Virus record (IMG/VR): IMGVR_UViG_3300033571_016365
Location: 1-59,324 of that record
Length of the DNA: 59,324 bases
Strand: one strand, 5' to 3'
Source of the DNA: a virus
The translations under genes were made by a program, and so were the position numbers. Each line of letters begins with the position of its first letter. Position 1 is the stretch's first letter. Positions 2,790-59,324 of the stretch are shown piece after piece. The notes below the pieces were generated by a model. That model was not told where the DNA came from and searched no databases. It was given only the letters and a program-made list of their open reading frames with translations.

Positions 2790-3172
2790 TATTGATTAAG
2801 AGTTTCCAGGATACTTATAGTGTATTTGATATGATTTGGAGATGTGGTAGAAATTCCACTCATTACAATGCTATCAGTTTTTAATGCTGTCCTTTCTAAA
2901 ACCAATCTTCCTTCTAAAAGAATCAAAGCATCATTAGGAGGAACTATGCCCCCACTAATAACTTCTGTAATATCAGTAGATACTCCAGATTGACTTCTAT
3001 TGACTCTTTTATGTGAAAATGTTACTGTTCCTATTCCAGATCCAGTATTAGCAGTTTGTGCAAAAAGAACAATGCTGGTATAACCTGTCCTTGTAGTATA
3101 AACCTCTGTGTTAGCAGTAGTGCTAACAATACCAGTAACTGTTTTGTATGTATTTAGTGGTTGTTGTGCCAT
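2789..3172 (-). CDS. small virion structural protein (unknown)
   Basis: A 127-residue protein (MAQQPLNTYKTVTG...). It is rich in Thr, Ser, Ile and Val, with no membrane segment or catalytic motif, and looks all-beta. It lies between a 1498-aa fibre-like gene (6-nt gap) and the collagen-like gene, whose ATG overlaps its stop by one base. The position suggests a connector, adaptor or decoration protein of the same appendage. I do not recognise a named family, so the structural role is inferred from context only. Confidence 0.75.
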   Translation of the reverse strand: MAQQPLNTYKTVTGIVSTTANTEVYTTRTGYTSIVLFAQTANTGSGIGTVTFSHKRVNRSQSGVSTDITEVISGGIVPPNDALILLEGRLVLERTALKTDSIVMSGISTTSPNHIKYTISILETLNQ

Positions 3173-3178
3173 GTAATT

Positions 3179-7675: not shown

Positions 7676-7701
7676 CGGGTTCCACTATCCCCCTTTTGTA
7701 T

Positions 7702-7709
7702 TATTTATA
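7702..7709 (-). promoter_or_regulatory. late promoter motif TATAAATA
   Basis: TATAAATA on the minus strand overlaps the stop codon of the 1797-aa gene and lies about 27 nt upstream of the 1498-aa gene start. It matches the T4-type late promoter consensus. No -35 element is expected for sigma-gp55-type promoters. Confidence 0.65.
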
Positions 7710-10700
7710 AAGTTCTCATAATAAATGCGAGTGCATAATATGGAGGTCTGTTTTCATGAGATCCACCACCACCAGTATTAGGTTGAATTGTTGTGTCAGT
7801 TGTAGAAGTAGCACTAGTTGCTGATGAAGTTTCCGTAATTGAGATAATTGCAGTGTTGCCCTGAGCTCCCCTTGCTGCAGATGTAGTAGTTATATCAGTT
7901 AAAACATTAGCAGGAGATATTGTAGTTGTTGTAGTAGATATTGCCACATGGGTGTGTGCTGGAATCTGAGTAGAATCTAAGGTTACTGAATTTAATCCAC
8001 CTTGAGTTCCTGGAGTATACCCAACTGTTCCTGCTACTGCTGGATTATCGCCACCAGCACCAACAATAAACCTTTCTCTTAAATCTGGAGTTCCACTTGT
8101 ACCATCACAAAGAGCCCATCCAGAAGGAATGGTTGCTACTGATCCAGACCACATAATGATTCCATTAATAGGAATAGTTCCATATCCTTTAAACTTAGCA
8201 CTAGAACCAGCAACAATATCTCCAACTGAAGTTATACTAGCACCAGCACTTACATTAGAAACAAAGGTAGAAACACCAGCAACTCTTATATTGTCAGATA
8301 CATGTAAATTATCATTAACAATAACATTTCCATCAGCAGAATTTAAATATAAATTTTGAGACGAAGTGTCAATAGTAGATGCTGATGCAATTCCAATTCT
8401 TATTGATGAAATACCTGCAGTTCCAATTACTTTTAAGTTTTCTCCAATATTGACACTTTTATCTATTCCAACTCCACCAAGAACAACTAAAGCTCCATTA
8501 GAAGGATCTGTAGTATCTTGAGTGCTTGCTACTGTAGTAATACCAACAATAAATGCATCAGTAGATACTGTAAGTTTATTGAGATTTGCTGCAGCAGTTG
8601 TCCCATCTAATTCATCATTAATAATTACTTTGTTAGCAACAACAACATCAAGAGTTGCAGCATTAGAAGATTCTGCTTCTGGAAGTCCAACATCAATTTG
8701 TTTGCCAGTTACTGCATCAAATTTAGTTTTACCAATATAAAATTCTCCATCACTATTCATTCCAGTATAAACTACTAAACCTCCTCTACTATTCAGAGAT
8801 TGTGAAGTTAATACTTCAGCATCAGAAAGAATTCTATCTTGGTTTGTTGGCATTCCTGTTGAATAGTTACCAGGACCAAATCCAGTGTATTCAAAAGTAT
8901 GACCAGATGCACGAATGATAGAATTTCTTCTAAGTTCAATTGGTACTATTTTAATTTTCTTAATATTTGAATTATTTTCATGAGCTACTGCTCTAGTTCC
9001 AAATAATGCTCTCTTAACAAAAACTTCACCACCAGAAATTCTGGTAATAAGCATAATTTCTGAATTGATTTGTATAAAATCTCCTTTATCTAATCCATAA
9101 AGATCATTTATTAAGAAATTAGAAACTGATGCAGATATTTGTTGAGAGATTGCTCCTTTATATCCACCAAGAATAGTAAACAATCTTGAGTTTAAATTTT
9201 CATTAGTAATTGAAGTATCTTTTGGATTTGAAAGTAATCCTGCACCAAATACTCTTACTGCATCACTAGCATCTCCCTTTACAGTAAATGTAGTAATACC
9301 AGTAACTGTAGAAATAGTAGAAATTCCAATTTTTTCAGGTGGATTTCCAATTGCATCATCAAAAATAACTTTACTACCAACAGCAAATGAGTGTGGTAAT
9401 TGAGTAGTTATTGTTGTAGTATCTGTTAATGCATTATATACAGATCCATCTGGACTATTTCTTATTTGGTATCCAATTCCAGATAAGAACGATACTGCAT
9501 TTGCAGGAGTTTCTGGAGTTGCATTATTATTATAATATGTAATTGTATTTGATTTTACTGACTGTATAACAAATGTTCCATTATTTTGTTCTTTGGCGCA
9601 CCCAATTATTTGAATTGTATCAGTATCTGATGCACTGTAATTGACAGAAGATACAGTTAAGAAACAATCATTAGTAGATCCAGGAATTCCTCTAACCCTT
9701 AATAGATCTCCAGAGAGATAACCAGATCCTTGATTTTGAATACTAGCTTCTGCTACTACATTAGATGCTACTCTAATATTTGCAGTTGCATTAGATCCAC
9801 TCCCACCACAAAGAGGAACATCATAAAATAATCCATTAACATACCCTGATCCTGGAGTTGTAACAGTAAGTCTTCTAATTCCACCTAGTCCATGAGAAAT
9901 TGCAGTTGTTACTGTTGCAATTCCTACCCCAGAATCATAATATGTAGTAATGCCTGAAATTTTAGATGTTAAATTAAAATCCTTAAGATATGAAGTTAGA
10001 GTTTCCTTAGTAACGCTCTTTTTAACATCATTAACAGTTACTGTGCCAATTTCTTTTCTGGAAGCTAAACTAATAGTTCCTTCTGGATCTGCAATTGGAT
10101 TGTCTAAATCTTGAGTTGGGTATAATTTTTCTATGCTTTGAGATAATTTATATTGCTCAGTATTAAATGGAACAATAGTAGGGGTATTTTTAAATGCATT
10201 TAATGTTACATGATAAATTCCATCTGAAGTTCCCTCTACATATTCTTGAATAGTTTCAATATCATATAATTGATAATCATTAATTATCTTTTTATTAACA
10301 AAATATGGCAAATTAGTTCTATTTGCATCATAAATTGTGTATGGAGGAACTCTATAGTTTGAAGTTTGAGAACAATTTCTTTCGCTCAACCAAGTTGCAA
10401 CAGCAGAAGTTCCTAAAGTTATTGTTCCAGGATTTCTTGAAATTGTATATGTAAATCTAATTTCATTAATTACACTTGCAACAGTAAATTTTCCATTATA
10501 CCCAGTTCCAGTTCCTAACCCCACTGGGGTTGGTTCATTAGTGCTCTTTAAATTATAAACTTCAATAGTATCACCAACATTTAATTTGTGGGGTTTGCTA
10601 GTTACTATAGTGGCTGTACCAGAGGAATACCAAGCATCTACAATAGCCCCATCATTTCTTATTTGATTGATTGGATTAGAAGATACTAACTGCTCACTAT

Positions 10701-13098
10701 CTGCTTGATATAATGCAGAATCTAGAGCATTAGATGCTTTTTGAATAATAAAACCAGAAGATAAATCTGAAGAATTTTCTGATTCTTTTGGTATTACTAT
10801 TCTTACTCTATAAAGTTTATCTTTATTAAATCTAGAGTCAACTTTTCTAGTAAAGAATGAACCTGGAGCAGTAACTCCAATTAGATTTAAAAAGAAGTCA
10901 GTTGCGCCAGAACCTACTGAGTTTACTCCAACATACCAATTTAAAGCAGTTTCATCCCATTGAACAGGACTTCCAACATCACCAGAATTTTTTTCAGAAA
11001 TTCTACTAACAAATTTTAAATTTGATGTAGTTAATCCTACGCTATTTTTTATATCTATTGGTGCAGTATTTGTTTCTGCATTAAGAGAATTTGAGTATAA
11101 CCTAACTCCAGTTCCTCCAGTCAATCTTAAATTATAAAGTTTATCTGCTACTATTCCATCTGGAAGTTCTCCAGTACCAGAAATAATTTTACCAGATATG
11201 CCTGTAGATATTCCAGATACACTAGAAAGTGTAATAATATTTGTATCTGCATCAATTCCAGTTACATCATATTCAGATTTATAACTTGGACTTATAGGAA
11301 TAGAATATTGATCATTTGCTCTCTTAAATGATATAGTATCATTTTGCTTACCACCAATAACAAAATTTCTAACATTGTTTGGAGGTGGATCTAATAGATC
11401 AATATATCCCTTCAGATATACTCTAGTGTTTTGATTTGAAGGTGCTTTTGTTGATGTTAAGGTAGCATCTATATCAATATATCTAACATCACTTTCAATT
11501 GATGAGATATCTTTTGGCGGGATAATGTGAGTTATGTATGCATGATTATCTTTTGCTAAAACAATATCTTTGAATCCAGTTGAGAATAAAGATATAGCTC
11601 CAAAGTTAGAGTTAGAGTTTGTAATTGATTGATCACCACCACTTTCAGTTACAAACTGTTTGGCATAACCAATAGCAAAAATAGATACACACTGAATGAA
11701 TGAATTATTGCTTGCCTTTACATGGTAACTTTCCCAAGATGGTCTATATTTTGCTCTAGATGATTGGTGAAGGAATTTATCCACACCATAATTTTCTTGG
11801 TAATTATATCCACCAACTGCTTCATCATATTCTACAAAAGCTCTATCATCTTTTTGTAGGGAAATTCCAGTAAATTGTGCAGTAACAACTGATTTAAATC
11901 CAGATACTTTAGAACCATCAGCATGAATACCATTCATGCCATAGACTGATTTCAAACTGCAATTGTATATGTATGGAGATGCAGATGATACTGTATCTGA
12001 AATTACCTTAACTGTTGCTCCAGAAACACTTGGATTTAGAGTTTGGGTAGGAACATTTGAAAGTAAATATGTAAACTCAGTTTCGCTAGTTACCTGGGCA
12101 ACAACATAATTTCCATTATACTCTAATTCACTTGTTGGACCTTCATCTTGCCCAAGACCAGAAAGTAAAATTGGCGTTAATGGAGAAAGACCATGAGGTG
12201 TTTGAGTCTGTACAGTAATTACATTAGTACCAGAAGTTCCATTTCCAGAAACTGCAGATATAATGCTAATTGAACCAAGACCCAACTCTCCAACGATTCT
12301 ATTTTCATCTACATTTGGTTGGAAGTTGGTAAATCCATCAATAATGCTTCTTCCAGATTGAGCACCATATGCTAGACTTAATTTATAGTAATATGCCTCT
12401 AAATCTGTATATCCAGTATCTACCCCATTCCTTACTAAAGTATTACTATCATCTGCATACTCAAATGCAGTTAATTTATGGTGAGAATAATTTGGTACTG
12501 AAGTATTTGTTGTATAGTTACTGTAAACTTTTCCTACTGGATCTCCATCAAAAATAGTAAATCCATAAATGTAACAAGCACCAGTAAGCCTAAAAATAGC
12601 AGCAGGAGCAATTAAATCATTGATAGGATTGGGGACAAACTTTGGTTTAATCTTAGTTTTTCTAAGATCCGTAGAAACAATAGATGTTCCCTTAGGTAAT
12701 ATTACTCCCCCATCTGCACTATTAAGTGTATATAATATATTTGCTGGGTCATCTAAATCAAAATTTGAAGAAATATTTAATTCAGATATAGTTTTTATGG
12801 AATTATTTACATCTCTCAAAACCTGATTTTGGTCTACATAAAATCCAGGTCTATTATCAATAAAATGAGTTCCTGGAGAAATTAAAATCGTAGTTTGATC
12901 AAATAGATCATTATTAGGTCCAGGTATATATGAGAATCTTGCTGCTTCAATTAAAGCTCTTTGAATCGTCTTAAATGGTCTAATTCTAGAGTTTCCTCTA
13001 TTTTCAATAGAATCTGAGGCATCTAATTCATTAGGATCTACATATAGAGTATTTCCATTTAAATTCTTCAAAAAATTCTCTAGTCTCGCTAAAGGCAT
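7705..13098 (-). CDS. 1797-aa tail fibre protein with C-terminal tail-collar domain
   Basis: The N-terminus (NGNTLYVDPNELDASDSIEN, then RPFKTIQRALIEAARFSY) is a pectin-lyase-like start seen in many cyanophage structural proteins. The middle holds PGSGYVNG and QGSGYLSG motifs (~1080 and ~1126). From about residue 1640 to the end it carries a phage tail-collar domain: GIIMWSG, GWALCDG, DLRERFIVGAG, PAHTHV and a final GGGGSHENRPPYYALAF. Collar domains are found in short and long tail fibre proteins (T4 gp12 type) and in receptor-binding tips. The gene begins the minus-strand fibre operon, behind a late motif at 13130-13137. It is far larger than T4 gp12, so orthology is not claimed. Host adhesion is inferred. 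Confidence 0.88.
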   Translation of the reverse strand: MPLARLENFLKNLNGNTLYVDPNELDASDSIENRGNSRIRPFKTIQRALIEAARFSYIPGPNNDLFDQTTILISPGTHFIDNRPGFYVDQNQVLRDVNNSIKTISELNISSNFDLDDPANILYTLNSADGGVILPKGTSIVSTDLRKTKIKPKFVPNPINDLIAPAAIFRLTGACYIYGFTIFDGDPVGKVYSNYTTNTSVPNYSHHKLTAFEYADDSNTLVRNGVDTGYTDLEAYYYKLSLAYGAQSGRSIIDGFTNFQPNVDENRIVGELGLGSISIISAVSGNGTSGTNVITVQTQTPHGLSPLTPILLSGLGQDEGPTSELEYNGNYVVAQVTSETEFTYLLSNVPTQTLNPSVSGATVKVISDTVSSASPYIYNCSLKSVYGMNGIHADGSKVSGFKSVVTAQFTGISLQKDDRAFVEYDEAVGGYNYQENYGVDKFLHQSSRAKYRPSWESYHVKASNNSFIQCVSIFAIGYAKQFVTESGGDQSITNSNSNFGAISLFSTGFKDIVLAKDNHAYITHIIPPKDISSIESDVRYIDIDATLTSTKAPSNQNTRVYLKGYIDLLDPPPNNVRNFVIGGKQNDTISFKRANDQYSIPISPSYKSEYDVTGIDADTNIITLSSVSGISTGISGKIISGTGELPDGIVADKLYNLRLTGGTGVRLYSNSLNAETNTAPIDIKNSVGLTTSNLKFVSRISEKNSGDVGSPVQWDETALNWYVGVNSVGSGATDFFLNLIGVTAPGSFFTRKVDSRFNKDKLYRVRIVIPKESENSSDLSSGFIIQKASNALDSALYQADSEQLVSSNPINQIRNDGAIVDAWYSSGTATIVTSKPHKLNVGDTIEVYNLKSTNEPTPVGLGTGTGYNGKFTVASVINEIRFTYTISRNPGTITLGTSAVATWLSERNCSQTSNYRVPPYTIYDANRTNLPYFVNKKIINDYQLYDIETIQEYVEGTSDGIYHVTLNAFKNTPTIVPFNTEQYKLSQSIEKLYPTQDLDNPIADPEGTISLASRKEIGTVTVNDVKKSVTKETLTSYLKDFNLTSKISGITTYYDSGVGIATVTTAISHGLGGIRRLTVTTPGSGYVNGLFYDVPLCGGSGSNATANIRVASNVVAEASIQNQGSGYLSGDLLRVRGIPGSTNDCFLTVSSVNYSASDTDTIQIIGCAKEQNNGTFVIQSVKSNTITYYNNNATPETPANAVSFLSGIGYQIRNSPDGSVYNALTDTTTITTQLPHSFAVGSKVIFDDAIGNPPEKIGISTISTVTGITTFTVKGDASDAVRVFGAGLLSNPKDTSITNENLNSRLFTILGGYKGAISQQISASVSNFLINDLYGLDKGDFIQINSEIMLITRISGGEVFVKRALFGTRAVAHENNSNIKKIKIVPIELRRNSIIRASGHTFEYTGFGPGNYSTGMPTNQDRILSDAEVLTSQSLNSRGGLVVYTGMNSDGEFYIGKTKFDAVTGKQIDVGLPEAESSNAATLDVVVANKVIINDELDGTTAAANLNKLTVSTDAFIVGITTVASTQDTTDPSNGALVVLGGVGIDKSVNIGENLKVIGTAGISSIRIGIASASTIDTSSQNLYLNSADGNVIVNDNLHVSDNIRVAGVSTFVSNVSAGASITSVGDIVAGSSAKFKGYGTIPINGIIMWSGSVATIPSGWALCDGTSGTPDLRERFIVGAGGDNPAVAGTVGYTPGTQGGLNSVTLDSTQIPAHTHVAISTTTTTISPANVLTDITTTSAARGAQGNTAIISITETSSATSATSTTDTTIQPNTGGGGSHENRPPYYALAFIMRTL

Positions 13099-40072: not shown

Positions 40073-41152
40073 TCAACCAATAGAAGGTGCAGTCAAGGCA
40101 ACCTGAGTTGTCTCAGCAGCAGCAAGGTCAAGGGGGAAGTTGTGAGCATTTCTTTCATGCATCACTTCCATACCAAGACCACCACGGTTTAGAATGTCTG
40201 CCCAAGTAGGGATCACACGGTTCTGACTATCAACAATAGACTGGTTGAAGTTGAATCCATTCAAGTTGAATGCCATGGTGCTAACACCAAGAGCAGTAAA
40301 CCAGATGCCAACAACAGGCCAAGCAGCAAGGAAGAAGTGTAGTGAACGTGAGTTGTTGAAAGAAGCATACTGGAAGATCAGACGACCAAAGTAACCATGT
40401 GCAGCTACAATGTTGTATGTTTCTTCTTCTTGTCCAAACTTATATCCATAGTTCTGTGACTCAGTTTCTGTCGTCTCACGAACGAGACTAGAGGTGACAA
40501 GAGATCCGTGCATAGCAGAGAAAAGAGAACCACCGAAGACCCCAGCAACTCCCAGCATATGGAAAGGGTGCATAAGAATGTTGTGTTCTGCCTGGAAAAC
40601 AAGCATGTAGTTGAAAGTTCCTGAAATCCCCAGAGGCATTGCATCAGAGAAGGATCCCTGACCAAAGGGATAGACCAGAAACACTGCGCTAGCAGCAGCA
40701 ACGGGTGCAGAGTAGGCAACACAAATCCAAGGACGCATACCCAATCTGTAAGACAATTCCCATTCGCGTCCCATGTAAGCATAAATACCAATCAGGAAAT
40801 GGAAAACAACCAGTTGAAAAGGTCCACCATTATATAGCCACTCATCAAGTGAGTTTGCTTCCCAGATGGGATAGAAGTGAAGACCAATAGCGTTGCTAGA
40901 AGGAACAACAGCACCAGAAATGATGTTGTTGCCATACATGAGTGAACCAGAAACAGGTTCTCTAATCCCATCAATATCGACAGGAGGTGCAGCAATGAAA
41001 GCAACAATGAAACAGATAGTAGCAGCAAGAAGAGTAGGGATCATTAGTGTCCCAAACCAACCAACATAGAGTCTATTGTTAGTTGAAGTTACCCACTCAC
41101 AGAACTGTTCCCAAGTATTGCTCTCACGCCTTTGGGCGATTGAAGCGACCAT
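40073..41152 (-). CDS. psbA: photosystem II D1 protein
   Basis: A 359-residue full-length D1 reading frame without intron. Typical blocks include [53 protein letters not shown] and the C-terminal [10 protein letters not shown] processing region. Residue 130 is Glu ([13 protein letters not shown]), the high-light D1:2-type form. Phage D1 replaces photodamaged host D1 so that photosynthesis continues during infection. A consensus sigma-70 promoter (41220-41248) and a leader hairpin (41188-41210) control it. Base composition is clearly richer in G+C than the structural genes, in line with host origin. Confidence 0.98.
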
Positions 41153-50147: not shown

Positions 50148-51106
50148 TTTAATTTACCAAGAATGCTGTCTACAAATTCTACCTCATAGGTGTACCCATC
50201 TTCCATACCTATGTTCCAAATATTTTTGTTACCATAGATGGTATTGTAAATGGTATGGATGCCAAATCCATTTTCAATATAAAGAAACTTTTTATTATAC
50301 TTTTCTCTATACAAATTCAACTGAATTTCATCAAATGAATCATGAGCACCAATATCTAGTAACCTTTTCCAATCTTCAGTTTTAATTATAAATGTGCTTG
50401 TTGTGTAATATGGTTCTTTAAATTCTTTGATACTATAGTCATGCTTTGATATTAGTCTATCAAAGTTTTCTACAATATAATTGTTTAATAATAACTGAGC
50501 TTTAGCACAAATTCTAATAGGGTGAATTCCCTTTAAGTATGTATTCAGGTTAGAAACACCTTCAAAAAATGCTTTGGAGTCCCAAGAATTAGCATTGATT
50601 GTATGTGCATTTAGAGGAGTATAATCTGCACCCCATAATCCATTGGGCATTTCTTGGTTCAAATAATTTCTATATATTGCCCCTATCATCCAAGGATCTT
50701 TAACAAAAGATTCTACAAATCTATCTGTATGGGGAATACCATTAGACAGCATTGGTGTAAGAATAAAATTATCTTCATCATCTAAGACATCTATGTTCTC
50801 AATAATATAATCCCATACATGATTGCTAATAAAACAATCTTCATCAAGCTTAACTGAATACTTATTTGTTTCATCTAATGCTGCACTAATCTTTTGCATG
50901 TAGTTGAGTTCTACATCAGGAAACACCATAACTTGAGATTCAAATCCTTCAAGATAAGATCCCCAATCAAAAGACTTTGATGCAAGAACATTAATTTTTA
51001 CTTTCTCTTTATTCTCTGGTTTAATTTTATTCAGAAAATGTGTTGTTATCTCCCAATACTTATGGAGATCTTTTCTTTGATGGGACAAATAATTAATAGT
51101 AATCAT
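50144..51106 (-). CDS. putative GT-A glycosyltransferase
   Basis: A 320-residue protein (MITINYLSHQRKDLHKYWEI). KYSVKLDEDCFISNHVWDYI carries a D-E-D metal site in the usual position, and the rest is alpha/beta with an aromatic C-terminus. A glycosyltransferase by motif and context; the family is unclear. ATGA overlaps on both sides. Confidence 0.65.
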   Translation of the reverse strand: MITINYLSHQRKDLHKYWEITTHFLNKIKPENKEKVKINVLASKSFDWGSYLEGFESQVMVFPDVELNYMQKISAALDETNKYSVKLDEDCFISNHVWDYIIENIDVLDDEDNFILTPMLSNGIPHTDRFVESFVKDPWMIGAIYRNYLNQEMPNGLWGADYTPLNAHTINANSWDSKAFFEGVSNLNTYLKGIHPIRICAKAQLLLNNYIVENFDRLISKHDYSIKEFKEPYYTTSTFIIKTEDWKRLLDIGAHDSFDEIQLNLYREKYNKKFLYIENGFGIHTIYNTIYGNKNIWNIGMEDGYTYEVEFVDSILGKLK

Positions 51107-51786
51107 GGAATCCTAGACAGATTTACAATGTTCAATTCATCATTCTTAAATGATAGGACTTTTTCAAATCCACAATAATCAAAAAGTTCTTCTACTAATT
51201 CTATCGTAAATGTGTGATGATGTACAACTCTTGTGAGATGATTGATTTCACATAATTCATAGAATTGATGATGCCCACCATAAGACCAATCATGTAATTG
51301 TTTCTGTTCTTCTATATGGGTAGTATCATCTTCCCCAACCCCTTCCACATAATCACAAATCAAATGATCCATTCTGGTTAGTGGTCTCTTCCTGTCAAAA
51401 CAATATTGATAGTCTGGAATAATAGTTAAAATATAACCACCTGAATTCAACAGATATTGTTGCCACAACTTTAAAGTATGAATGGGATTTGCAAAGTGCT
51501 CTATTGCATGTGAGGTTACAACAAAATCATATTTCTTTAACTTCTTTAATTGATCCTCATTTGTACAATCAACATCATATTGTCTTCCTATTTTATCTCC
51601 ATAGATAAAATTTGATGATATATTTGTCTGAAAGTAATTATTACTTATAATATTTCCCCCATCCAAATTTACATATGGATATAGCAACATGTTATGTTGC
51701 AGTTCACTAAAAAGTTCAGTAGGTCCTCCAAACTCTATTCCCTTTAGATTTAAAAGGATGTCTGTAACTTGTTTAAAATTTAACAT
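51103..51786 (-). CDS. SAM methyltransferase (type 11-like)
   Basis: A 227-residue protein. GIEFGGPTELFSE is a modified SAM loop, YDFVVTSHAIEHFANPIHTL the methyltransferase-11 core, and GGYILTIIPDYQYCFDRKR follows. A cluster of His residues (HHQFYELCE and VVHHHTF) is unusual and may bind metal. Coupled to neighbours by short overlaps in the glycan operon. Confidence 0.8.
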   Translation of the reverse strand: MLNFKQVTDILLNLKGIEFGGPTELFSELQHNMLLYPYVNLDGGNIISNNYFQTNISSNFIYGDKIGRQYDVDCTNEDQLKKLKKYDFVVTSHAIEHFANPIHTLKLWQQYLLNSGGYILTIIPDYQYCFDRKRPLTRMDHLICDYVEGVGEDDTTHIEEQKQLHDWSYGGHHQFYELCEINHLTRVVHHHTFTIELVEELFDYCGFEKVLSFKNDELNIVNLSRIP

Positions 51787-52634
51787 AACACATTAATATC
51801 GTATGGAAGACTTTTAACTAAGGAATAAGTTTTTGCAATTTCCAATGAAGGATAGTAGATCAAATTATTAAATGGTTCTATATCAATAAAGGTATTTTGA
51901 AATCCTATATGGGGATAAGGAGATTCTACAAACTCTTGAAATATGTCAGTCTCTGATAATTTTTCAAAAGCTATTTTAAAAAAATCATCAGATTTAAATT
52001 TTGAATAAGGACTATATGGAGAACAATATTTTTTTTCTAATAGTTGAGTGATGTGATCTTGTTCAGTTGCATCATATCCAAGATTAATTTTATTTCCAAC
52101 TTGAACACCAACATATCCAACTGCAGTGCATTGATCTCCTATTTTCATTTCTCCATCATGATCCCAAGTAAACTCCCAATTTATTTGATCTAATACTTCT
52201 GCTTTAGCAAACCAAAAAGGGGATCTTAAATGACTTTCATGTGGATATGATTTATGTCCATTAAATATTTGACTTGCTCCAAATCCAATTTTCTCATGGG
52301 AGTACATGGTATGAATAATATCTTTTAACCAATTATCTCTTTTTAAGATAACATCATCTGATATAAAAACAAAAAATTCATAATCACTTTTATACTTATA
52401 GAAGTAATGTCTATAAGCACCAAAAGCTTTATGTGGAATATCCTGACCATTAATAATTTTATTTTCTATAATCATCCTCCCATCATAGTTTCTAACCTTA
52501 GATGGAAATCCAGCATAGTCTCTATGAACAACTATCAAATCATGAGGATATCCAGAAATACAGTTATTGTAGGACTTCCAAAAAAGATCCTTTTGCCTAA
52601 TGCCCCCAAGCATTATAACTGCAACTTTTTTCAT
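51780..52634 (-). CDS. putative GT-A glycosyltransferase
   Basis: A 284-residue protein. DYEFFVFISDDVILKRDNWL has an S-D-D metal site, with VIMLGGIRQKDLFWKSYNNC as the nucleotide-binding start and SPFWFAKAEVLDQINWEFTW an acceptor-side motif. Specificity unknown. Confidence 0.7.
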   Translation of the reverse strand: MKKVAVIMLGGIRQKDLFWKSYNNCISGYPHDLIVVHRDYAGFPSKVRNYDGRMIIENKIINGQDIPHKAFGAYRHYFYKYKSDYEFFVFISDDVILKRDNWLKDIIHTMYSHEKIGFGASQIFNGHKSYPHESHLRSPFWFAKAEVLDQINWEFTWDHDGEMKIGDQCTAVGYVGVQVGNKINLGYDATEQDHITQLLEKKYCSPYSPYSKFKSDDFFKIAFEKLSETDIFQEFVESPYPHIGFQNTFIDIEPFNNLIYYPSLEIAKTYSLVKSLPYDINVLC

Positions 52635-53317
52635 ACAACCTCTCTTAACTTATCAGCAGTATCTTGACCTGTAATATTGAATGCAGGATCTTTAAATTTT
52701 AAAGATTTTACTGTTGAGAATTGATTAATTGAAAAATCATATTTTTGTCTGACTTGCTTTGACCAGAACACATCTTCTCCCTGCCCCCAAGAAAGATTTT
52801 CATTTAATGGGAATTCCATCATGGTGCTTTTTTTAGCAACCCAATATGTTCCAGAAATATACATGTACTTGGATAGATGAGTAATATCATATGGGATCAA
52901 GCATTCTCTGTTAGGGAGAACAATACCATCCATAAAATTATCATTATGTGGCCAAATTACCCAATCTCTAAATCTTGAGTTATCTGGATTCACGAACTTG
53001 TTCATACAAATTTTAAAATCTTCTCCAAATTTTAAAAACCCATCATACCATCCAGGTTCAAATACAACATAGTCATGAGAGTAAACTATATTTTCATATC
53101 TAGAATTTATAGTAATTAAATTCTTTTTCCTAGTAATCCAAGAAGGTCTAATAGTTTCATTAAATGGAATTATAAAAGTATTATCTCTAGAGATATAACT
53201 GTTCCCAACTATTATAATTTGATACTCTTTAATATTTTGTGATTCTATGCTGTCAATAACTTTATTTAAATTATCTTCAGAATTTCCATCAGTAATAATA
53301 CCAAAAGTAAATTTCAT
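52631..53317 (-). CDS. GT2-like glycosyltransferase
   Basis: A 228-residue protein. FTFGIITDGNSEDNLNKVID opens as in GT2 enzymes, NIVYSHDYVVFEPGWYDGFL provides the S-H-D metal motif, and NENLSWGQGEDVFWSKQVRQ is the conserved G-x-x-E-D of the family. It overlaps both neighbours by 4 nt. Confidence 0.75.
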   Translation of the reverse strand: MKFTFGIITDGNSEDNLNKVIDSIESQNIKEYQIIIVGNSYISRDNTFIIPFNETIRPSWITRKKNLITINSRYENIVYSHDYVVFEPGWYDGFLKFGEDFKICMNKFVNPDNSRFRDWVIWPHNDNFMDGIVLPNRECLIPYDITHLSKYMYISGTYWVAKKSTMMEFPLNENLSWGQGEDVFWSKQVRQKYDFSINQFSTVKSLKFKDPAFNITGQDTADKLREVV

Positions 53318-53778
53318 ACTAGATACCCAACATAATCACTACAAATACCAAAGCAATCATATGCTCTAAGGTCTACAAATTCATTTACATTTTTATTCCA
53401 TTCTGGCATGACTATTACAGACTTTGAAGTATAAGGTTTACCTGGATAAGTCCAAATATAATTTCTACTAGTTAAACTATAATCATCTTCTTGATGCCAA
53501 AAATAATTAAATCCACTTGTGCCACGAGAAAACTCATAAAGTGCTTCAATGTTTTTACAATGAATCCATAAATTATCTCTATATTTACCAAACCAAAACC
53601 AATCTACTTTATAATCTGGTTCATCATGTCCTAGATACAATTTAGAATCTAGAGGACTATATCTAACATCAATTTCAACATCAAAACCTTGAGAAATTGC
53701 TTGTTCAATATAATCTGGATTATTTTCCTTAGAGGGATCAGGTCCGTTAATATTTCCTCTATGTGCAATCAGTTTCAT
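53314..53778 (-). CDS. short GDPD-like (glycerophosphodiesterase/PLC-like) protein
   Basis: A 154-residue protein. KLIAHRGNINGPDPSKENN (His-Arg active site), QGFDVEIDVRYS (E-x-D) and LYLGHDEPDY (second His) match the first third of the GDPD TIM barrel. Normal enzymes are ~240 aa or more, so it may be a minimal or truncated form. In this operon it may cleave a phosphodiester-linked glycan or be a structural remnant. Confidence 0.7.
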   Translation of the reverse strand: MKLIAHRGNINGPDPSKENNPDYIEQAISQGFDVEIDVRYSPLDSKLYLGHDEPDYKVDWFWFGKYRDNLWIHCKNIEALYEFSRGTSGFNYFWHQEDDYSLTSRNYIWTYPGKPYTSKSVIVMPEWNKNVNEFVDLRAYDCFGICSDYVGYLV

Positions 53779-55142
53779 TCTTTGTAGTGCTCCAAGAAAT
53801 AATTTAAATCTTCAGGTGTCCCAATACCCCACATCCCATCCTTTTCAATCTCTTTAATTCTGATTTTTTTACTATCGGAAATTGCCTCATTGAATACTGG
53901 ACAGACATAGAATTCATTATTAACTCTAATGTTTTTCTTAATCATTTGTTCTGCATACTTTACATAATCAGAACCTTTCTTCCAGTAGTAGATACCAACA
54001 GTAGCATGTTCAGAGATTGGTTTCTTCTCTGCAACTTCTTCAACATACCCATCATCACCAAGCTTAGCATAGGACCATTTAGGGTGAGTTGCAGGGAATG
54101 TCAGGATACCTCCATCACATTCACCATTCTGAAATGCATAGAGAGTTTCATTAGAATCCCATACAACAAACTGGTCTGAGTTTGCCATCACCAGAGGTTC
54201 ATCATTATTGATAAACTCTTTAGCAAGAAGAGTTGTACAAGCAGCACCTTCAGTGATTCCATCTACTTGAACAATATTACAATTGGGAGCAATCAGGGGA
54301 AGTAGATAATTTAAATTATATTTTTCATAGTGTTCTTTCTGAACAATAAAAGTATAGTTTGCTTTAATATTCAGGTTCTCAACTACTACCTGAATCATTG
54401 GTTTCCCTCTAACTTCAATCAAAGGTTTAGGGAAGGTATATCCCTGACTAGCAAATCTACTACCAGCTCCTGCCATAGGAATCAGAACATTCATGGTCTT
54501 ACTCTCCCATGCCACTTTTTGTTTTGTGCCATTTAAAATCTTTTTAATTCTATTGATCTTTTCTTGATTAAGATCTTTTCTATTTTCTACTGGAACCAGA
54601 TGTGCCTTACTATCTAATGCTCCCTGTCTGCCAATATGACTATCCTCAACAATCACAGTATCTGCAGGAAGAGCACCAAGAGCAGTCATACACTTCCAAT
54701 ACATTGCTGGGAATGGCTTGTTCCTGACTACATCTTCATTAGACACATACATGTCTACAAACTCCAATACTCCCAATCTTAATAAAAGTATTTTAACAGT
54801 ATTCCTAATAGAATTAGATGCAACAGCAATCTTATACCCAGCATCTACAAGTTGTTGGAAGTATCCCATCAACTCATAATCTTTTGCTACACAGTCATTA
54901 AAGATCTTAAGTGTTGCCTCTTGTTTGTCTTGCCAAATCTGATCATAAAGATCTACCGGCAAACCTTTATTTTTAGTAAGAAGTTCTAACTTTGCCCTGG
55001 TTGGAAGACCATCATAAACGCTAACATGCTCTTCTCTACTAATAGAGTACTTGTCTCCAAGTGCCTGATTAAGTGCTTCATAGTGATAGTCCTTGCTATC
55101 AATCAAAACACCATCTAAATCAAAGATTACTAGTTTGCTCAT
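53775..55142 (-). CDS. HAD phosphatase fused to sugar nucleotidyltransferase
   Basis: A 455-residue protein from ATG 55142 ([20 protein letters not shown]). Residues ~1-210 are a HAD phosphatase: D-x-D-G-V motif, KIAVASNSIRNTV (motif II), VRNKPFP (Lys) and VIVEDSHIGRQGA (E-D). Residues ~220-455 are a nucleotidyltransferase: NVLIPMAGAGSRFASQG, PKPLIEVRGKPMIQVV and NSDQFVVWDSNE. The fusion suggests that one protein dephosphorylates and then activates a sugar phosphate. Which sugar is unknown. It overlaps fcl by 23 nt. Confidence 0.85.
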   Translation of the reverse strand: MSKLVIFDLDGVLIDSKDYHYEALNQALGDKYSISREEHVSVYDGLPTRAKLELLTKNKGLPVDLYDQIWQDKQEATLKIFNDCVAKDYELMGYFQQLVDAGYKIAVASNSIRNTVKILLLRLGVLEFVDMYVSNEDVVRNKPFPAMYWKCMTALGALPADTVIVEDSHIGRQGALDSKAHLVPVENRKDLNQEKINRIKKILNGTKQKVAWESKTMNVLIPMAGAGSRFASQGYTFPKPLIEVRGKPMIQVVVENLNIKANYTFIVQKEHYEKYNLNYLLPLIAPNCNIVQVDGITEGAACTTLLAKEFINNDEPLVMANSDQFVVWDSNETLYAFQNGECDGGILTFPATHPKWSYAKLGDDGYVEEVAEKKPISEHATVGIYYWKKGSDYVKYAEQMIKKNIRVNNEFYVCPVFNEAISDSKKIRIKEIEKDGMWGIGTPEDLNYFLEHYKE

Positions 55143-56088
55143 TCTTGTACCACTCATAAGTTTCATAGATTCCTTGACGAATCCCAATCTTAGGACTCCA
55201 ACCAAGAGATTTGATTTTGTCTACATTCAAGACTTTTCTAGGAGTACCATTAGGTTTAGAAGTATCCCATTCAATTTTACCTGGATAATCAACAATAATA
55301 GAAATTAATTCTGCAAGTTCTTTAATAGTAAGATCTTCACCAGTTCCTACATTAATAATTTCAGAATCATCGTATGAAATCATACATCTGAAACATGCTT
55401 CTGCAAGATCATCAACATGAAGAAACTCTCTCCTTGCAGATCCATCTCCCCACAATTCTACTGATGGACCATACCAAGGACCACCTGGATCTATTACATA
55501 TCCCTTTCTAGCAGCTTCATGAAACTTCCTAATCATTGCAGGAAGAACATGTGATGTTTCCAAATCAAAATTATCATTAGTACCATAAAGATTTGTAGGC
55601 ATCAGTGAGATGGCATTGAACCCATACTGTTCTCTATATGCCTGACACATCATAATACCAGATATCTTGGCAATTGCATAGGCATCGTTTGTTGGTTCCA
55701 AAGAACCAGTCATAAACTGATCTTCTCTGATTGGTTGAGTAGCAAACTTAGGATAGATGCAAGAGGAACCAAGGAACAGAAGTTTAGTTGCATTCCAACG
55801 ATTAGCAGACTCAATAATATTAGTTTGAATGCGAAGATTCTCAGTTAGAAAATCTGCCTTATAGTTATTGTTTGCCATAATGCCACCAACTTTAGCAGCG
55901 GCAACAAAAACATACTCGGGTTTTGCTAACTGAAAAAACCTATCAGTTTCTTCTTGGTCAGTAAAATCTACAATATGGCGAGTTCCTTTCATGATATTAG
56001 TATATCCTTTACTCTCAAGATTTCTGACAATTGCCGATCCAACCATTCCATTGGCACCGGCAACCAATACTTTAGAATTACTGTCCAT
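55120..56088 (-). CDS. fcl: GDP-L-fucose synthase
   Basis: A 322-residue short-chain reductase/epimerase from ATG 56088 ([20 protein letters not shown]). The NADP loop [27 protein letters not shown] (catalytic Ser), [16 protein letters not shown] (Tyr-x-x-x-Lys), and [20 protein letters not shown] are those of Fcl/WcaG. It epimerises and reduces GDP-4-keto-6-deoxy-mannose to GDP-L-fucose. It overlaps gmd by 11 nt, so both steps are coupled. Length is as in bacteria (~320 aa). Confidence 0.95.
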
Positions 56089-57079
56089 AAATGCACATAT
56101 CCTCAACTAATTGATCAAATGAAATCTTAGGTTCCCAACCTAATTCAACTTTTGCCTTAGAGGCATCACCTAACAAAGTCTCTACTTCAGCAGGTCTAAA
56201 ATATTTAGGATCTACTTTAATAACCTCTTTTCCAGTATTAGTATCAATCCCAACTTCATCCATATATTTACCTTTCCATTCAATATTAAATCCAAAGTAA
56301 GGTGCTGCTTTATCTACAAATTCTCTGACTGAGTATTGTTCTCCTGTTGCAATAACATAATCATCTGCATATTTTTGCTGGAGCATTAACCACATTGCTT
56401 CTACATAATCTTTTGCATGACCCCAATCTCTTTGGGCATTAAGGTTGCCCAGATATAATGTATCTTGCAAACCACAAGAAATTTTAGATAGTGCTCTAAC
56501 AATCTTTCTAGTTACAAATGTTTCTCCTCTTCTAGGAGATTCGTGATTGAACAGGATGCCAGTACAGGCATACATGTCATACGCTTCTCTATAGTTCTTT
56601 GTGATCCAATAAGCATATAACTTAGCAACACCATAAGGAGACCTAGGATAAAAAGGTGTTGTTTCTTTCTGAGGGATTTCCTGAACAAGTCCATACAGTT
56701 CAGATGTAGATGCCTGATAGATTCTCACTTTATCTTCCATACCAAGCAACCTAACTGATTCTAGGATCCTTAGTGTGCCAACACCATCAACATCAGCAGT
56801 GTACTCAGGCATCTCAAAAGATACCTTTACATGACTTTGTGCAGCAAGGTTATAGATTTCATCTGGTTGAACTTGTTGAATAACTCTAACTAAGTTCGTA
56901 GCATCAGTAAGGTCCCCATAATGCAAATTAATTGAATCATATACATGATCAATACGATGCGTATTGATAAGGGAAGACCTTCTAATAATGCCATGAACTT
57001 CATAACCTTTTTGGAGTAATAATTCAGCAAGATACGATCCATCTTGGCCAGTGATACCAGTAATTAAAGCTACTTTCAT
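56078..57079 (-). CDS. gmd: GDP-mannose 4,6-dehydratase
   Basis: A 333-residue protein. [20 protein letters not shown] (NADP loop), [39 protein letters not shown] (Thr-Ser-Glu active site) and [20 protein letters not shown] (Tyr-x-x-x-Lys) are the Gmd signature, with [20 protein letters not shown] later. It makes GDP-4-keto-6-deoxy-D-mannose, the Fcl substrate. It heads the 12.2-kb glycan operon. A TATAAT box at 57100-57105 lies 20 nt upstream. Confidence 0.96.
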
Positions 57080-57099
57080 ATACAGATTACTTTTTCATT

Positions 57100-57128
57100 A
57101 TTATACTAAAAAAGGAGAGTTTATGCAA
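57100..57128 (-). promoter_or_regulatory. possible promoter for the gmd operon, embedded in a terminator
   Basis: TATAAT (57105-57100) with TTGCAT (57128-57123) 17 nt upstream on the minus strand. The -35 box matches only three consensus bases and sits in the loop of the terminator hairpin, so the promoter is tentative. Confidence 0.45.
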
Positions 57129-57134
57129 CTCTCC
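57108..57134 (-). terminator. terminator after the tRNA-Ile / repeat RNA transcript
   Basis: GGAGAGTT (57134-57127 on minus) and AACTCTCC (57121-57114) form an 8-bp perfect stem with a 5-nt loop followed by TTTTTT (57113-57108). It separates the tRNA/repeat region from gmd. Confidence 0.88.
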
Positions 57135-57139
57135 TATTA

Positions 57140-57336
57140 GGTCTTTCATGCACGCCACCAATTCTTTAACTGGAAATTGGAAACCAGGCGGGAGTAACCT
57201 CCATCCGCACCACCAATTTTTTGAGGAAATTGGAAACCTAATGAGGGTCATATTGACTCCACCAGGATTTTTAAAGTCTCTCCATGACTGAAGGGGGTTC
57301 ATCCCGACCAGGGTTTTTAAAGTCTCTCCATGACTA
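57140..57336 (-). ncRNA. structured repeat region, candidate non-coding RNA
   Basis: No convincing coding frame. Two pairs of direct repeats occur. A 22-nt exact repeat lies at 57268-57289 and 57314-57335. A 14-nt exact repeat lies at 57172-57185 and 57225-57238, each copy within a longer hairpin (CCAATT/AATTGG at 57158-57180; CCAATTT/AAATTGG at 57213-57233). Another stem is GCGG/CCGC around 57188-57207. The region lies between tRNA-Ile and a strong terminator in one transcription direction, so it would be the 3' part of a tRNA transcript or an independent small RNA. Confidence 0.5.
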
Positions 57337-57337
57337 T

Positions 57338-57361
57338 ATTTGCTATTTGCGAATAGCAAAT
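57338..57361 (-). other. 10-bp hairpin at the 3' end of tRNA-Ile
   Basis: ATTTGCTATT and AATAGCAAAT pair perfectly around a 4-nt loop and touch the discriminator base of the tRNA. Possibly a processing signal for tRNA 3' maturation. Confidence 0.55.
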
Positions 57362-57432
57362 GGGAATACTGGGAGTTGAACCCAGACTAAGCCCTTATAA
57401 GGAGCCCGCTCTAACCATTAAGCTATACTCCC
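57361..57432 (-). tRNA. tRNA-Ile (anticodon UAU)
   Basis: 72-nt cloverleaf: acceptor GGGAGTA with TATTCCC, D arm GCTT..GAGC, anticodon stem GGCTC/GGGCT with loop CTTATAA giving UAU, T arm CTGGG TTCAACT CCCAG, discriminator A, CCA not encoded. UAU reads AUA directly. Bacteria normally use a modified CAU anticodon for AUA, so this tRNA is notable. The anticodon stem has two G-U pairs, making the call slightly less certain. Confidence 0.85.
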
Positions 57433-57440
57433 TAAAAAAG

Positions 57441-57632
57441 TTAAGGTCCATCTTCATGTTCTGTGTGGATCTTAACAAATTCATCAACTAGACTTAGTTG
57501 GTTTTTTCCAACATAAGGAGTCATTACAGCATTACCATATTCACTTGTGATTAAAAATGATTCTCCATTTTCAACTCTATTCAACAAATTATCAAAATCT
57601 TGTTGAAAGTGTTCAATAGTAAATTGTTCCAT
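57441..57632 (-). CDS. Phd/YefM-like antitoxin without visible toxin
   Basis: A 63-residue protein. FTIEHFQQDFDNLLNRVENG and ESFLITSEYGNAVMTPY have the Phd/YefM layout (helix, V-x-x-G-E-x-x-x-I-x-x beta hairpin, then G-x-x-x-x-x-x-P). No toxin-like gene lies next to it; the upstream genes encode unrelated small proteins. It has its own sigma-70 promoter at 57654-57682. It may neutralise a host toxin or act as a transcription regulator. Confidence 0.7.
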   Translation of the reverse strand: MEQFTIEHFQQDFDNLLNRVENGESFLITSEYGNAVMTPYVGKNQLSLVDEFVKIHTEHEDGP

Positions 57633-57653
57633 AATGTTGAAGTTGATTTAGTT

Positions 57654-57682
57654 ATCATACTATAAACTTGGGGTTAGGTCAA
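57654..57682 (-). promoter_or_regulatory. sigma-70 promoter for the Phd-like gene and tRNA-Ile
   Basis: TTGACC (57682-57677), 17-nt spacer, TATGAT (57659-57654) on the minus strand. The next features downstream are the antitoxin-like gene, tRNA-Ile and the repeat RNA. Confidence 0.7.
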
Positions 57683-57834
57683 GCTTTTTCTTTGTTGCTC
57701 CAAAATTTATCCATAGGATCTATTTTAGTTTTTATTATAGCACATGCTCTTTTGTAAAACATATTATTGGTATTACCAGATTTTTCAAATGTTTCTTTTA
57801 TTTTCACCCAATTATCATAGGTGTGTTGATCCAT
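57679..57834 (-). CDS. 51-aa basic hypothetical protein
   Basis: MDQHTYDNWVKIKETFEKSG... ending DKFWSNKEKA. It is basic, with a helical middle (MFYKRACAIIKTK). Its ATG overlaps the upstream stop (TAATG). Function unknown. Confidence 0.65.
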   Translation of the reverse strand: MDQHTYDNWVKIKETFEKSGNTNNMFYKRACAIIKTKIDPMDKFWSNKEKA

Positions 57835-57989
57835 TAGAATTTTTGTAAATGGTCATTTAATCTAAGCAACATTTTTTCTGCTTCTCGAACGTCCATTCCA
57901 TCTTGCTTAGAATAATATATGTAGTCATCTAGTGCAAGAGTGATTAATTCAACATCACCTTTTCCTAACTTTGGGGACTCCCAACTCAT
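57834..57989 (-). CDS. 51-aa hypothetical protein
   Basis: MSWESPKLGKGDVELITLAL... followed by SKQDGMDVREAEKMLLRLND. Acidic and helical. ATGA overlap with the upstream zinc-ribbon gene and TAATG overlap downstream support a coupled gene. Function unknown. Confidence 0.65.
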   Translation of the reverse strand: MSWESPKLGKGDVELITLALDDYIYYSKQDGMDVREAEKMLLRLNDHLQKF

Positions 57990-58237
57990 TTAATTTCAAA
58001 CTCCAATTTTTTGATTTTACGTTTTTTTCTTGCTTCCTGAAAAGCAAGATCTTCTTTTGAAAAAAGAGAATCTTTATTCTTCTTGTCTATACTACTCAAC
58101 AATTCAACTAATGTCAAGTCAATTGCTGTAATGGTTTCTCCTGTTATAGAAGACATATTTTCACATCCACAACATTTAGTTCTTATTGGATGTGATATTA
58201 ATTCTGTATTACAATTTTTGCACCTTATTTTTAACAT
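57986..58237 (-). CDS. 83-aa zinc-ribbon protein
   Basis: MLKIRCKNCNTELISHPIRTK followed by CCGCENM: two Cys knuckles (C-x-x-C ... C-C-x-C) form a zinc ribbon. The C-terminal half is a charged helix (FQEARKKRKIKKLEFEIK). Likely nucleic-acid or protein binding. A late motif lies 22 nt upstream. Confidence 0.72.
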   Translation of the reverse strand: MLKIRCKNCNTELISHPIRTKCCGCENMSSITGETITAIDLTLVELLSSIDKKNKDSLFSKEDLAFQEARKKRKIKKLEFEIK

Positions 58238-58258
58238 AGGTCTACATAATATTTTTTA

Positions 58259-58266
58259 TATTTATC
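58259..58266 (-). promoter_or_regulatory. late promoter motif GATAAATA
   Basis: GATAAATA on the minus strand, 22 nt before the zinc-ribbon gene, between it and the porin terminator. Confidence 0.5.
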
Positions 58267-58283
58267 AATAGCAAATCATCTAT

Positions 58284-58311
58284 AAAAAAACCACCCCTTT
58301 TGAGGGTGGTT
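58284..58311 (-). terminator. porin terminator
   Basis: AACCACCC and GGGTGGTT (58311-58304 and 58296-58289) form an 8-bp stem with a 7-nt loop, followed by a T-run on the minus strand (58290-58284). It lies 23 nt after the porin stop. Confidence 0.88.
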
Positions 58312-58334
58312 CTACTCATGTTATGAGTTGTTTA

Positions 58335-59324
58335 TCAGAATGTGAACTTGGTCTGAACCACACCACCCCAAGCAGATTCATTTTGGAATCTTTGGTTGTT
58401 ACTTACATAGAAGATAGCAGGAGTGATGCTGATGTTGTCTGAAACTTTATACTTGTAGAAAACTTCAAGCATCGTAGCATCATCAGAGATGTTATCAGAA
58501 TTTCCAGGTTGACCCACAGCAATGCCAGCAGCATTACCTTGAACAAACACATCAGACCACTGAAGTCCAACGAACCAGGAATCAGAATCAGTAGCACCAG
58601 TTTTCTTACCAGCACCATCAACATCATTGTATCCATAACCTACTGAAATGGAAGGCACGAATCCACTTTGGGAAGGTTGCCAGTAAGCATTAGCAGCAAT
58701 GCTATTGCTTTCTTGTCCAGTAGCAAGGACACCAGATCCACCACCAAGGGCATTAAAGGTACGAACACGACTGCCTTCAGTACCATAACGATAAGCAACA
58801 GCAGCACCCCATTGAGGAGCACGATACCCAACTTGTGCCATGAAGTTCAATCCACTGTCTGAATTAAACACACCAGTTTCAGTACTATCACCATCCTGTG
58901 AAACATAGTTCAGTCCAGCAACGAAACCACCCTTACCTTTTTGGGTAGGTTGCTTCCATTGAGCACCAAAACCAGCACCAGTTGCTTTGTTATAAACACC
59001 AGATGTACCACCAAGTTGGAAGAAGTCCAGAATTTCTGACTTATAAACAGAAGGAATCCAAGCCATCTCAGTGTTACGAACTAGAGGACCAGCAGTTAGA
59101 GTTACACTCTTCCCAACTGGGAACTGATAGTACAGACGATCAATTTTTACTTGATCATCATAAGACTCTGCCTTATCAAGTTTGAACAGTGAAGAACTAG
59201 ATCCAAAAGGATCAGTACTAAAGTTACCAGAACGCAGACGAGTACGAAGCAAGTCCTTACCAGTGAATGAAGTATCAAAGTTCAGACGGAGATCATAGTT
59301 GAATGCGGTGTTGCCAACGTTTCC
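58335..59324 (-). CDS. cyanobacterial-type outer-membrane porin (OprB/Som-like), N-terminus beyond window
   Basis: At least 329 codons remain open to the right edge. The visible part starts GNVGNTAFNYDLRLNFDTSF and continues as amphipathic beta strands (DRLYYQFPVGKSVTLTAGPL, GGFVAGLNYVSQDGDS, FMAQVGYRAPQWGAAVAYRY, SWFVGLQWSDVFVQGNAAG), ending VVQTKFTF with a terminal Phe as in outer-membrane barrels. Cyanobacterial porins of this kind normally also have an SLH domain and coiled coil upstream, which would lie beyond the window. G+C content is higher than in neighbours, like psbA. A phage copy could alter nutrient entry or receptor exposure. Confidence 0.85.
   Translation of the reverse strand, partial: GNVGNTAFNYDLRLNFDTSFTGKDLLRTRLRSGNFSTDPFGSSSSLFKLDKAESYDDQVKIDRLYYQFPVGKSVTLTAGPLVRNTEMAWIPSVYKSEILDFFQLGGTSGVYNKATGAGFGAQWKQPTQKGKGGFVAGLNYVSQDGDSTETGVFNSDSGLNFMAQVGYRAPQWGAAVAYRYGTEGSRVRTFNALGGGSGVLATGQESNSIAANAYWQPSQSGFVPSISVGYGYNDVDGAGKKTGATDSDSWFVGLQWSDVFVQGNAAGIAVGQPGNSDNISDDATMLEVFYKYKVSDNISITPAIFYVSNNQRFQNESAWGGVVQTKFTF

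Follow-up and report, generated by a model that had tools for sequence, protein, structure and literature searches.

A host-derived SLH/OprB porin carried by a large family of cyanophages and its possible role in ion supply during infection

Introduction

Why would a cyanophage carry the gene of an outer-membrane channel? The question is raised by the right end of IMG/VR record IMGVR_UViG_3300033571_016365 (positions 1 to 59,324, hereafter the window, 59,324 nucleotides in all), where a first-pass annotation had recognized a cyanobacterial porin gene and proposed that it could change nutrient or ion uptake during infection or replace a receptor. The best-known auxiliary genes of phages act within the cell, mostly in photosynthesis and central metabolism; a widespread channel in the outer membrane would let phages govern entry into the infected cell as well.

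Structure of the porin gene and protein

The last 990 bases of the window form an open frame of 329 residues that runs from position 59324 to a stop codon at 58335, is open at the window edge (Table 1), and matches Pfam OprB (PF04966; E-value 2.1e-9, 37.7 bits, cut-off 22.9). The remainder of the gene was recovered from a 142,782-base IMG/VR contig (IMGVR_UViG_3300032292_000618, hereafter L003), which contains positions 50338–59324 of the window at 100% identity and also positions 1–12000 at 100%, placed as expected if the whole window lies inside it. In L003, the gene is complete and unbroken (7509–8990, 493 aa), which removes the concern that it might be broken upstream, and both a signal-peptide-like start and the SLH domain, which had been expected beyond the right edge, are present (the former and a C-terminal Phe were read by eye). 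The complete protein matches the NCBIfam model por_somb (NF033921, ‘iron uptake porin’) from end to end (model positions 1–485 of 485; E-value 7.6e-88, 295.3 bits, cut-off 100), and in Pfam an SLH domain (PF00395, residues 46–89) precedes the OprB barrel (PF04966, residues 101–493), confirming a cyanobacterial OprB/Som-type porin on a phage. ‘Iron uptake porin’ is the name of the family and does not imply that the phage porin is selective for iron.

An AlphaFold2 model of the L003 porin (84-row alignment, mean pLDDT 80.6, pTM 0.69) shows a long helix (residues 85–137) followed by 16 strands (142–492), with the first 77 residues mostly of low confidence. Its best matches among solved structures were OprB, the Veillonella outer-membrane attachment porin OmpM1, and OmpF. 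The predicted build of the window porin is a putative signal peptide, an SLH wall anchor, a coiled coil, and a 16-stranded barrel. The gene has its own terminator, as the first-pass annotation had stated: the hairpin and T run after the stop codon (−17.6 kcal/mol, z −4.6) were equalled in stability by 0 of 200 shuffles.

Table 1 Features of the porin locus and the cyanophage marker psbA, in window positions
Feature	Position	Strand	Remarks
psbA (photosystem II D1), cyanophage marker	40073..41152	-	phrog_182, E-value 1.9e-201
fcl-like gene (GDP-L-fucose synthase), same sugar/surface-glycan cassette as gmd	55120..56106	-	73% to S-SRM01 GDP-L-fucose synthase
gmd-like nucleotide-sugar epimerase, start of sugar/surface-glycan cassette	56078..57079	-	phrog_540; 76% to S-SRM01 GDP-D-mannose 4,6-dehydratase
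tRNA-Ile(tat), downstream of porin	57361..57432	-	
83-residue frame with paired cysteines, directly after porin	57986..58237	-	no Pfam family
Intrinsic terminator after porin	58283..58311	-	hairpin about 58289–58311, then T run; sequence and fold
Phage porin gene, 3' two thirds (residues 165–493 of 493; most of the OprB barrel)	58335..59324	-	5' part beyond right edge, present in L003

The porin gene belongs to the phage

The window contig encodes T4-like baseplate, tail, and ssb genes together with psbA (phrog_1922, phrog_230, phrog_224, phrog_182) and, given T4-like genes plus psbA, is that of a T4-like cyanomyovirus; L003 has nrdA and nrdB upstream. At its left end, the window is G+C-rich (1–2129), and copies of this stretch with 67–76% identity occur farther along the 142,782-base contig, like a repeated gene family. 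The porin gene is also more G+C-rich than its neighbors (0.430 compared to 0.354–0.375 in five other L003 genes), as had been noted, but this is no sign of a recent host origin. At fourfold-degenerate sites, its G+C content (0.158) is like that of the same five phage genes (0.094–0.183) and far from that of four cyanobacterial porins (0.68–0.89). The G+C excess therefore comes from amino-acid composition, the gene is long adapted to phage codon use, and a recent host origin inferred from G+C content was rejected.

A chimera, in which a host gene was assembled onto a phage contig, would be compatible with a window that ends within the porin gene and with a closest isolate relative that is only 70% identical. 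However, the whole gene lies within the long phage contig L003 with phage-like fourfold sites, the same gene is present in the genome of the isolated phage S-SRM01, and a query with a host paralogue returned no viral copy of more than 60% identity over its full length among 68 loci. The isolate and L003 refute the chimera, which we regard as vanishingly improbable, and the host paralogue query (68 loci) likewise led us to reject host contamination of IMG/VR as the source of the porin loci.

The gene is kept intact. It was complete in 70 of 80 loci from the first IMG/VR scan (nine were cut at the 5' and one at the 3' contig edge), and exactly one such gene was present per record in all 17 phage records tested. 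Four cyanobacterial genomes gave 4–8 porin matches each, some of them fragments. Pairwise omega ranged from 0.10 to 0.38 in 923 phage porin pairs, with dS near saturation in many of them, and the family is under purifying selection. The porin is therefore a candidate auxiliary metabolic gene, being host-derived (trees, see below), intact in phages (70/80 loci), and under purifying selection (omega).

Distribution of phage porins

Among the genomes in INPHARED, only S-SRM01 has the porin (two records of one phage), compared to psbA in 512 records; the annotated ‘porin’ of S-SRM01 is 69.6% identical to the window porin over residues 167–493. In IMG/VR, 299 relatives were confirmed in a first scan and at least 564 in a second, although phage contigs are often near-copies or related and the counts are not independent events. 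The view that a phage-borne porin is unusual did not survive these scans. A large family of phages of freshwater-type cyanobacteria carries this host-derived porin, acquired long ago. With the porin of marine WH7803 as query, no relatives were confirmed in IMG/VR, and PHROGs holds no family for the porin. The best match in the genome collection (73%; all others ≤61%) was L088, a phage contig in a metagenome-assembled genome labelled Microbacteriaceae, on which the translations, as we read them, point to ribonucleotide reductase, a deaminase, and an hli-like gene. This contig (CALGUV010000018.1) looks mis-binned, a porin-bearing cyanophage contig under ‘Microbacteriaceae’, as does L128 (CALPNT020000072.1), which has cyanobacterial porins under ‘Bifidobacterium breve’.

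Origin of the phage porins and exchange of barrels

In a 123-row tree, the 46 phage rows, which were chosen by similarity to the window porin, formed one side of a single branch (100*) beside a Cyanobium/Synechococcus paralogue. Most phage porins form one clade adjoining this paralogue. When the rows from the host query (68 loci) were added, the phage label required four changes, and a single clade of all phage porins was rejected (AU test on the barrel, p 1.2e-6, 40 phage rows). Seven odd loci among these are phage loci, with a porin fourfold-site G+C of 0.14–0.23, like most of their neighbors; L309 has tRNA-Gly before the porin and a Dps-like gene after it, and L298 has an hli-like gene after the porin.

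Identity was compared segment by segment along the protein. In L298/L301 and L300, residues 39–123 best matched other phage porins (0.93–1.00, compared to 0.80–0.96 for hosts), most of the barrel matched host paralogues, and the switch fell at about residues 128–145. In L286-type rows this signal was weak, with phage and host scores close, but the tree was clear. In barrel-only trees, the L300, L298, and L286 types each fell into a starred host group of their own, and four changes were forced. Seven odd or long host rows had been removed by hand from the barrel and anchor trees before changes were counted. The anchor region did not reject a single phage clade, with weak overall support: two of three trees separated all phage rows from the host rows (support 82, and 35 for residues 1–140), and the third tree had four changes, only one of them forced by starred branches. 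The L300 anchor lay in a starred all-phage set of 16 rows and the L286 anchor in one of five rows; the L298 anchor lay in no starred all-phage set, so its assignment as phage-type comes from the segment-wise identity.

Taken at the level of alignments and trees, the barrel has been swapped for host paralogues in at least three groups, with the leader, signal peptide, and anchor remaining phage-type. This exchange suggests repeated recombination of host porin genes with phage genes near a domain boundary. Barrels of the L300 type, 73–100% identical, turned up on 19 contigs in a further IMG/VR scan, the contig of the query counted among them. Only one residue difference between phage and host porins was fixed by the criterion used (position 12), so no single residue is diagnostic of either group. 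A different arrangement was seen in L533 (3471–4403), a phage SLH protein with a porin-type signal peptide and a different, smaller C-terminal part at a locus of the porin-hli-lysin type. It is akin to the ‘putative S-layer protein’ of S-PM2 and the ‘iron uptake porin’ of S-CREM1, and Pfam finds SLH alone in it and no OprB.

Outer loops are short and nearly constant in phage porins

Loop lengths were taken from the 16 model strands and compared at matched barrel identity, with the in–out topology assumed from the periplasmic anchor. Two phage sets were used: set A, ranked by similarity to the window porin (best 80 of 299 and best 80 of at least 564), and set B, which had no similarity cut to the window porin but came from a host porin query (68 loci, of which 8 were dropped as partial or unparsed). 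At 75–80% barrel identity, the 361 host pairs (best 80 of 393 rows, orthologues and paralogues mixed) differed in 5.50 of the 8 outer loops, compared to 1.75 in set A (982 pairs; counts depend on the alignment, set A giving 2.45 in the first one) and 2.92 in set B (263 pairs; raised at low identity by 7 rows with host-type barrels). At 80–85%, the values were 5.24, 1.32, and 1.55, respectively. The periplasmic turns varied in the opposite sense (75–80%, turns differing of 7: hosts 0.06, set A 1.47, set B 1.10), so phage porins are not generally poor in length changes. Phage outer loops were also shorter on average than those of hosts, loop 1 most of all (15 compared to 32 residues), and the constriction-type loop 3 had 31 residues in all 69 set-A porins. 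This contrast amounts to a natural experiment in which a single porin fold evolves both in cells that phages can still attack and in cells that one has already taken.

Gene neighborhood and leader of the porin

Within 3.5 kb downstream of the porin, ferritin/Dps genes were present in 18 of 45 representative loci, hli genes in 14, and neither in 13, the window phage included. When only the 30 loci with 3.5 kb of downstream sequence were counted, Dps was found in 12, hli in 9, a lysin in 7, gmd in 5, and ferredoxin in 1. Seen from the other side, 80 Dps loci represent 39 distinct Dps proteins, and the porin lies 0.5–2.8 kb upstream on the same strand in 25 of the 31 that could be evaluated. Since conservation of the porin's neighbors is largely shared synteny of related phages, we give it moderate weight. 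Of 16 porin-phage records, 9 carried a ferritin gene; none was found in the contig of the window phage, which may be incomplete. The stretch of small genes after the porin in L003 occupies the place of Dps or hli in many relatives.

Some further observations concern this region. The ferritin/Dps family of cyanophages comprises S-SRM01 and 292 IMG/VR stretches, mostly beside a porin; in INPHARED, the Dps of S-SRM01 has no cyanophage relative but itself among the matches listed. A 63-residue frame of the window (57441–57632) is weakly similar to Phd/YefM antitoxins (Pfam E-value 0.0045, below the cut-off). Five loci (L012, L013, L037, L063, and L067) contain 20–26 tRNA genes within 11–17 kb around the porin.

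Upstream of the porin in L003 (7331–7508), a sigma-70-like site (12/12) precedes tRNA-Gly(tcc), a terminator-like hairpin follows the tRNA, and TATAAATA lies 39 bases before the porin start. Many relatives also have tRNA-Gly just upstream. From an AAATA-type box to the start codon, the leader is conserved, with a hairpin-like stretch (in L003, the terminator-like one after the tRNA) and then TTGT(C/A/T)..T.TAGTAC. It was seen in L004, L015, L026, L031, L036, L058, L064, L068, L072, and L215, as well as in the barrel-swapped L286, L298, and L300, where it is also of the phage type. All 154 occurrences of the leader motif TGT[CAT][CG]T[AT]TAG[TC]AC precede a porin-like start (in overlapping loci, with none in the window itself), and the leader folds better than shuffles in four of five tested (z −2.5 to −3.0), the exception being L300 (z −0.95). 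The motif TATAAATA, described as a late promoter, stands 22–39 bases before annotated genes in several copies found by eye. On the plus strand of S-SRM01 positions 1–50000, neither it (6 compared to 5.4 expected) nor CTAAATA (5 compared to 10.0 expected) was in clear excess. Late expression of the phage porin is only hinted at by these motifs.

Possible functions of the phage porin

We tentatively read the phage porin as an outer-membrane channel that supplies inorganic ions, iron included, during infection, and give this reading close to an even chance. The porin would be made during infection and exported via the host Sec system. It would form a 16-stranded barrel in the outer membrane, with the SLH domain tying it to the peptidoglycan layer. 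The added channels would admit inorganic ions, iron among them, to a cell that no longer supplies porins of its own, and these ions could feed the iron-rich photosynthetic and nucleotide-making machinery for which such phages carry genes as well (psbA, hli, ferredoxin, ribonucleotide reductase). Ferritin/Dps from the nearby gene could hold iron in many relatives. The promoter leader, signal peptide, and anchor would remain those of the phage, with the barrel occasionally exchanged through recombination with a host porin. According to the host literature, cyanobacterial SLH/OprB (Som) porins pass inorganic ions and are anchored to the wall, and cells of a Slr1908 mutant contain about 40% less iron and form more vesicles (PMC8707739); many oprB-like transcripts in Synechococcus Fe experiments were similar to an iron-selective porin (PMC9723758); and a study of Prochlorococcus reported several host porin transcripts that were enriched when infection took place in the dark and not otherwise (PMC5082946). 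From these accounts, we infer that the phage porin would sustain the supply of ions, probably iron, to the benefit of the phage. The representatives without Dps or hli nearby (13/45) and the lack of a ferritin gene in the window phage's contig speak against it.

The short, constant outer loops would also suit a porin that lacks receptor sites. Lacking long variable loops, it could dilute or replace host porins that serve other phages as receptors and so hinder superinfection or the loss of progeny on debris. This is favored by the loop contrast between hosts and both phage sets, by the sugar/surface-glycan cassette that forms the next large genes downstream in the window, and by the precedent of a phage-coded, surface-changing porin in the temperate coliphage PA-2. 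Yet old porins would persist in a lytic infection, so that one more removes few receptors; the loops may be constant merely because infected cells face no phage selection; host-type barrels have been taken up repeatedly; and the iron-storage and hli neighbors are left unexplained. We consider this explanation unlikely, and the evidence between ion uptake and receptor change, the two options of the first-pass annotation, leans to ion supply.

It is decidedly unlikely that the anchor is the point of the protein and the channel secondary, with the SLH domain pinning the outer membrane to the wall and preventing blebbing or early lysis. The anchor (SLH and coiled coil) does stay constant while barrels change, the S-PM2 and S-CREM1 proteins have an SLH-plus-small-barrel build, and PMC8707739 reports hypervesiculation upon loss of the related Slr1908, but purifying selection and the constant loop 3 are located in the barrel, and anchor constancy may only mark where recombination ends. 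Ion supply and the loop data could also be combined, a possibility that we rate as unlikely: the porin would be an exchangeable outer-membrane cassette of fixed phage leader, signal peptide, and wall anchor with grafted host barrels, in which the usual barrel is a ‘stealth’ porin whose short, constant loops keep ions including iron flowing and offer rival phages nothing to bind.

Comparison with known systems

Among open-licence PMC papers, no account of this cyanophage porin family was found. The word ‘porin’ is absent from the main text of the S-SRM01 paper, though the porin is annotated in GenBank. This porin (QPX48248.1; MW015081, Serangoonvirus) is like that of the window phage in family, build, and locus type; its locus has tRNA-Gly upstream and Dps downstream, whereas the window phage has no Dps after the porin. 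Phage-carried SLH proteins also occur in S-PM2 (‘putative S-layer protein’, its gene followed by hli genes) and S-CREM1 (‘iron uptake porin’), but their C-terminal part is much smaller than that of the window porin and is not OprB, given that Pfam finds only SLH in the L533 relative. The Lc porin of coliphage PA-2 is a phage-encoded outer-membrane porin of a temperate phage, associated with lysogenic conversion, and, unlike the window porin, lacks an SLH anchor. PMC8115048 describes a viral OmpL porin, encoded next to glnK-amtB on contigs of marine viruses and proposed there as an auxiliary uptake gene; it differs from the window porin in porin type, in its ammonium genes, and in its proposed Flavobacteriales origin.

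The closest likeness is to the Som-type SLH/OprB porins of the hosts (NF033921 por_somb; Slr1908 and Slr1841 of Synechocystis), with which the phage porin shares a signal-peptide-like start, single SLH domain, coiled coil, OprB barrel, and C-terminal Phe. It differs from them in its single copy, low-G+C synonymous sites, short and near-constant outer loops, and repeated barrel exchange. The last two, outer loops that are short and hardly vary in length and the exchange of barrels while the anchor stays that of the phage, are unusual traits for a phage-carried porin.
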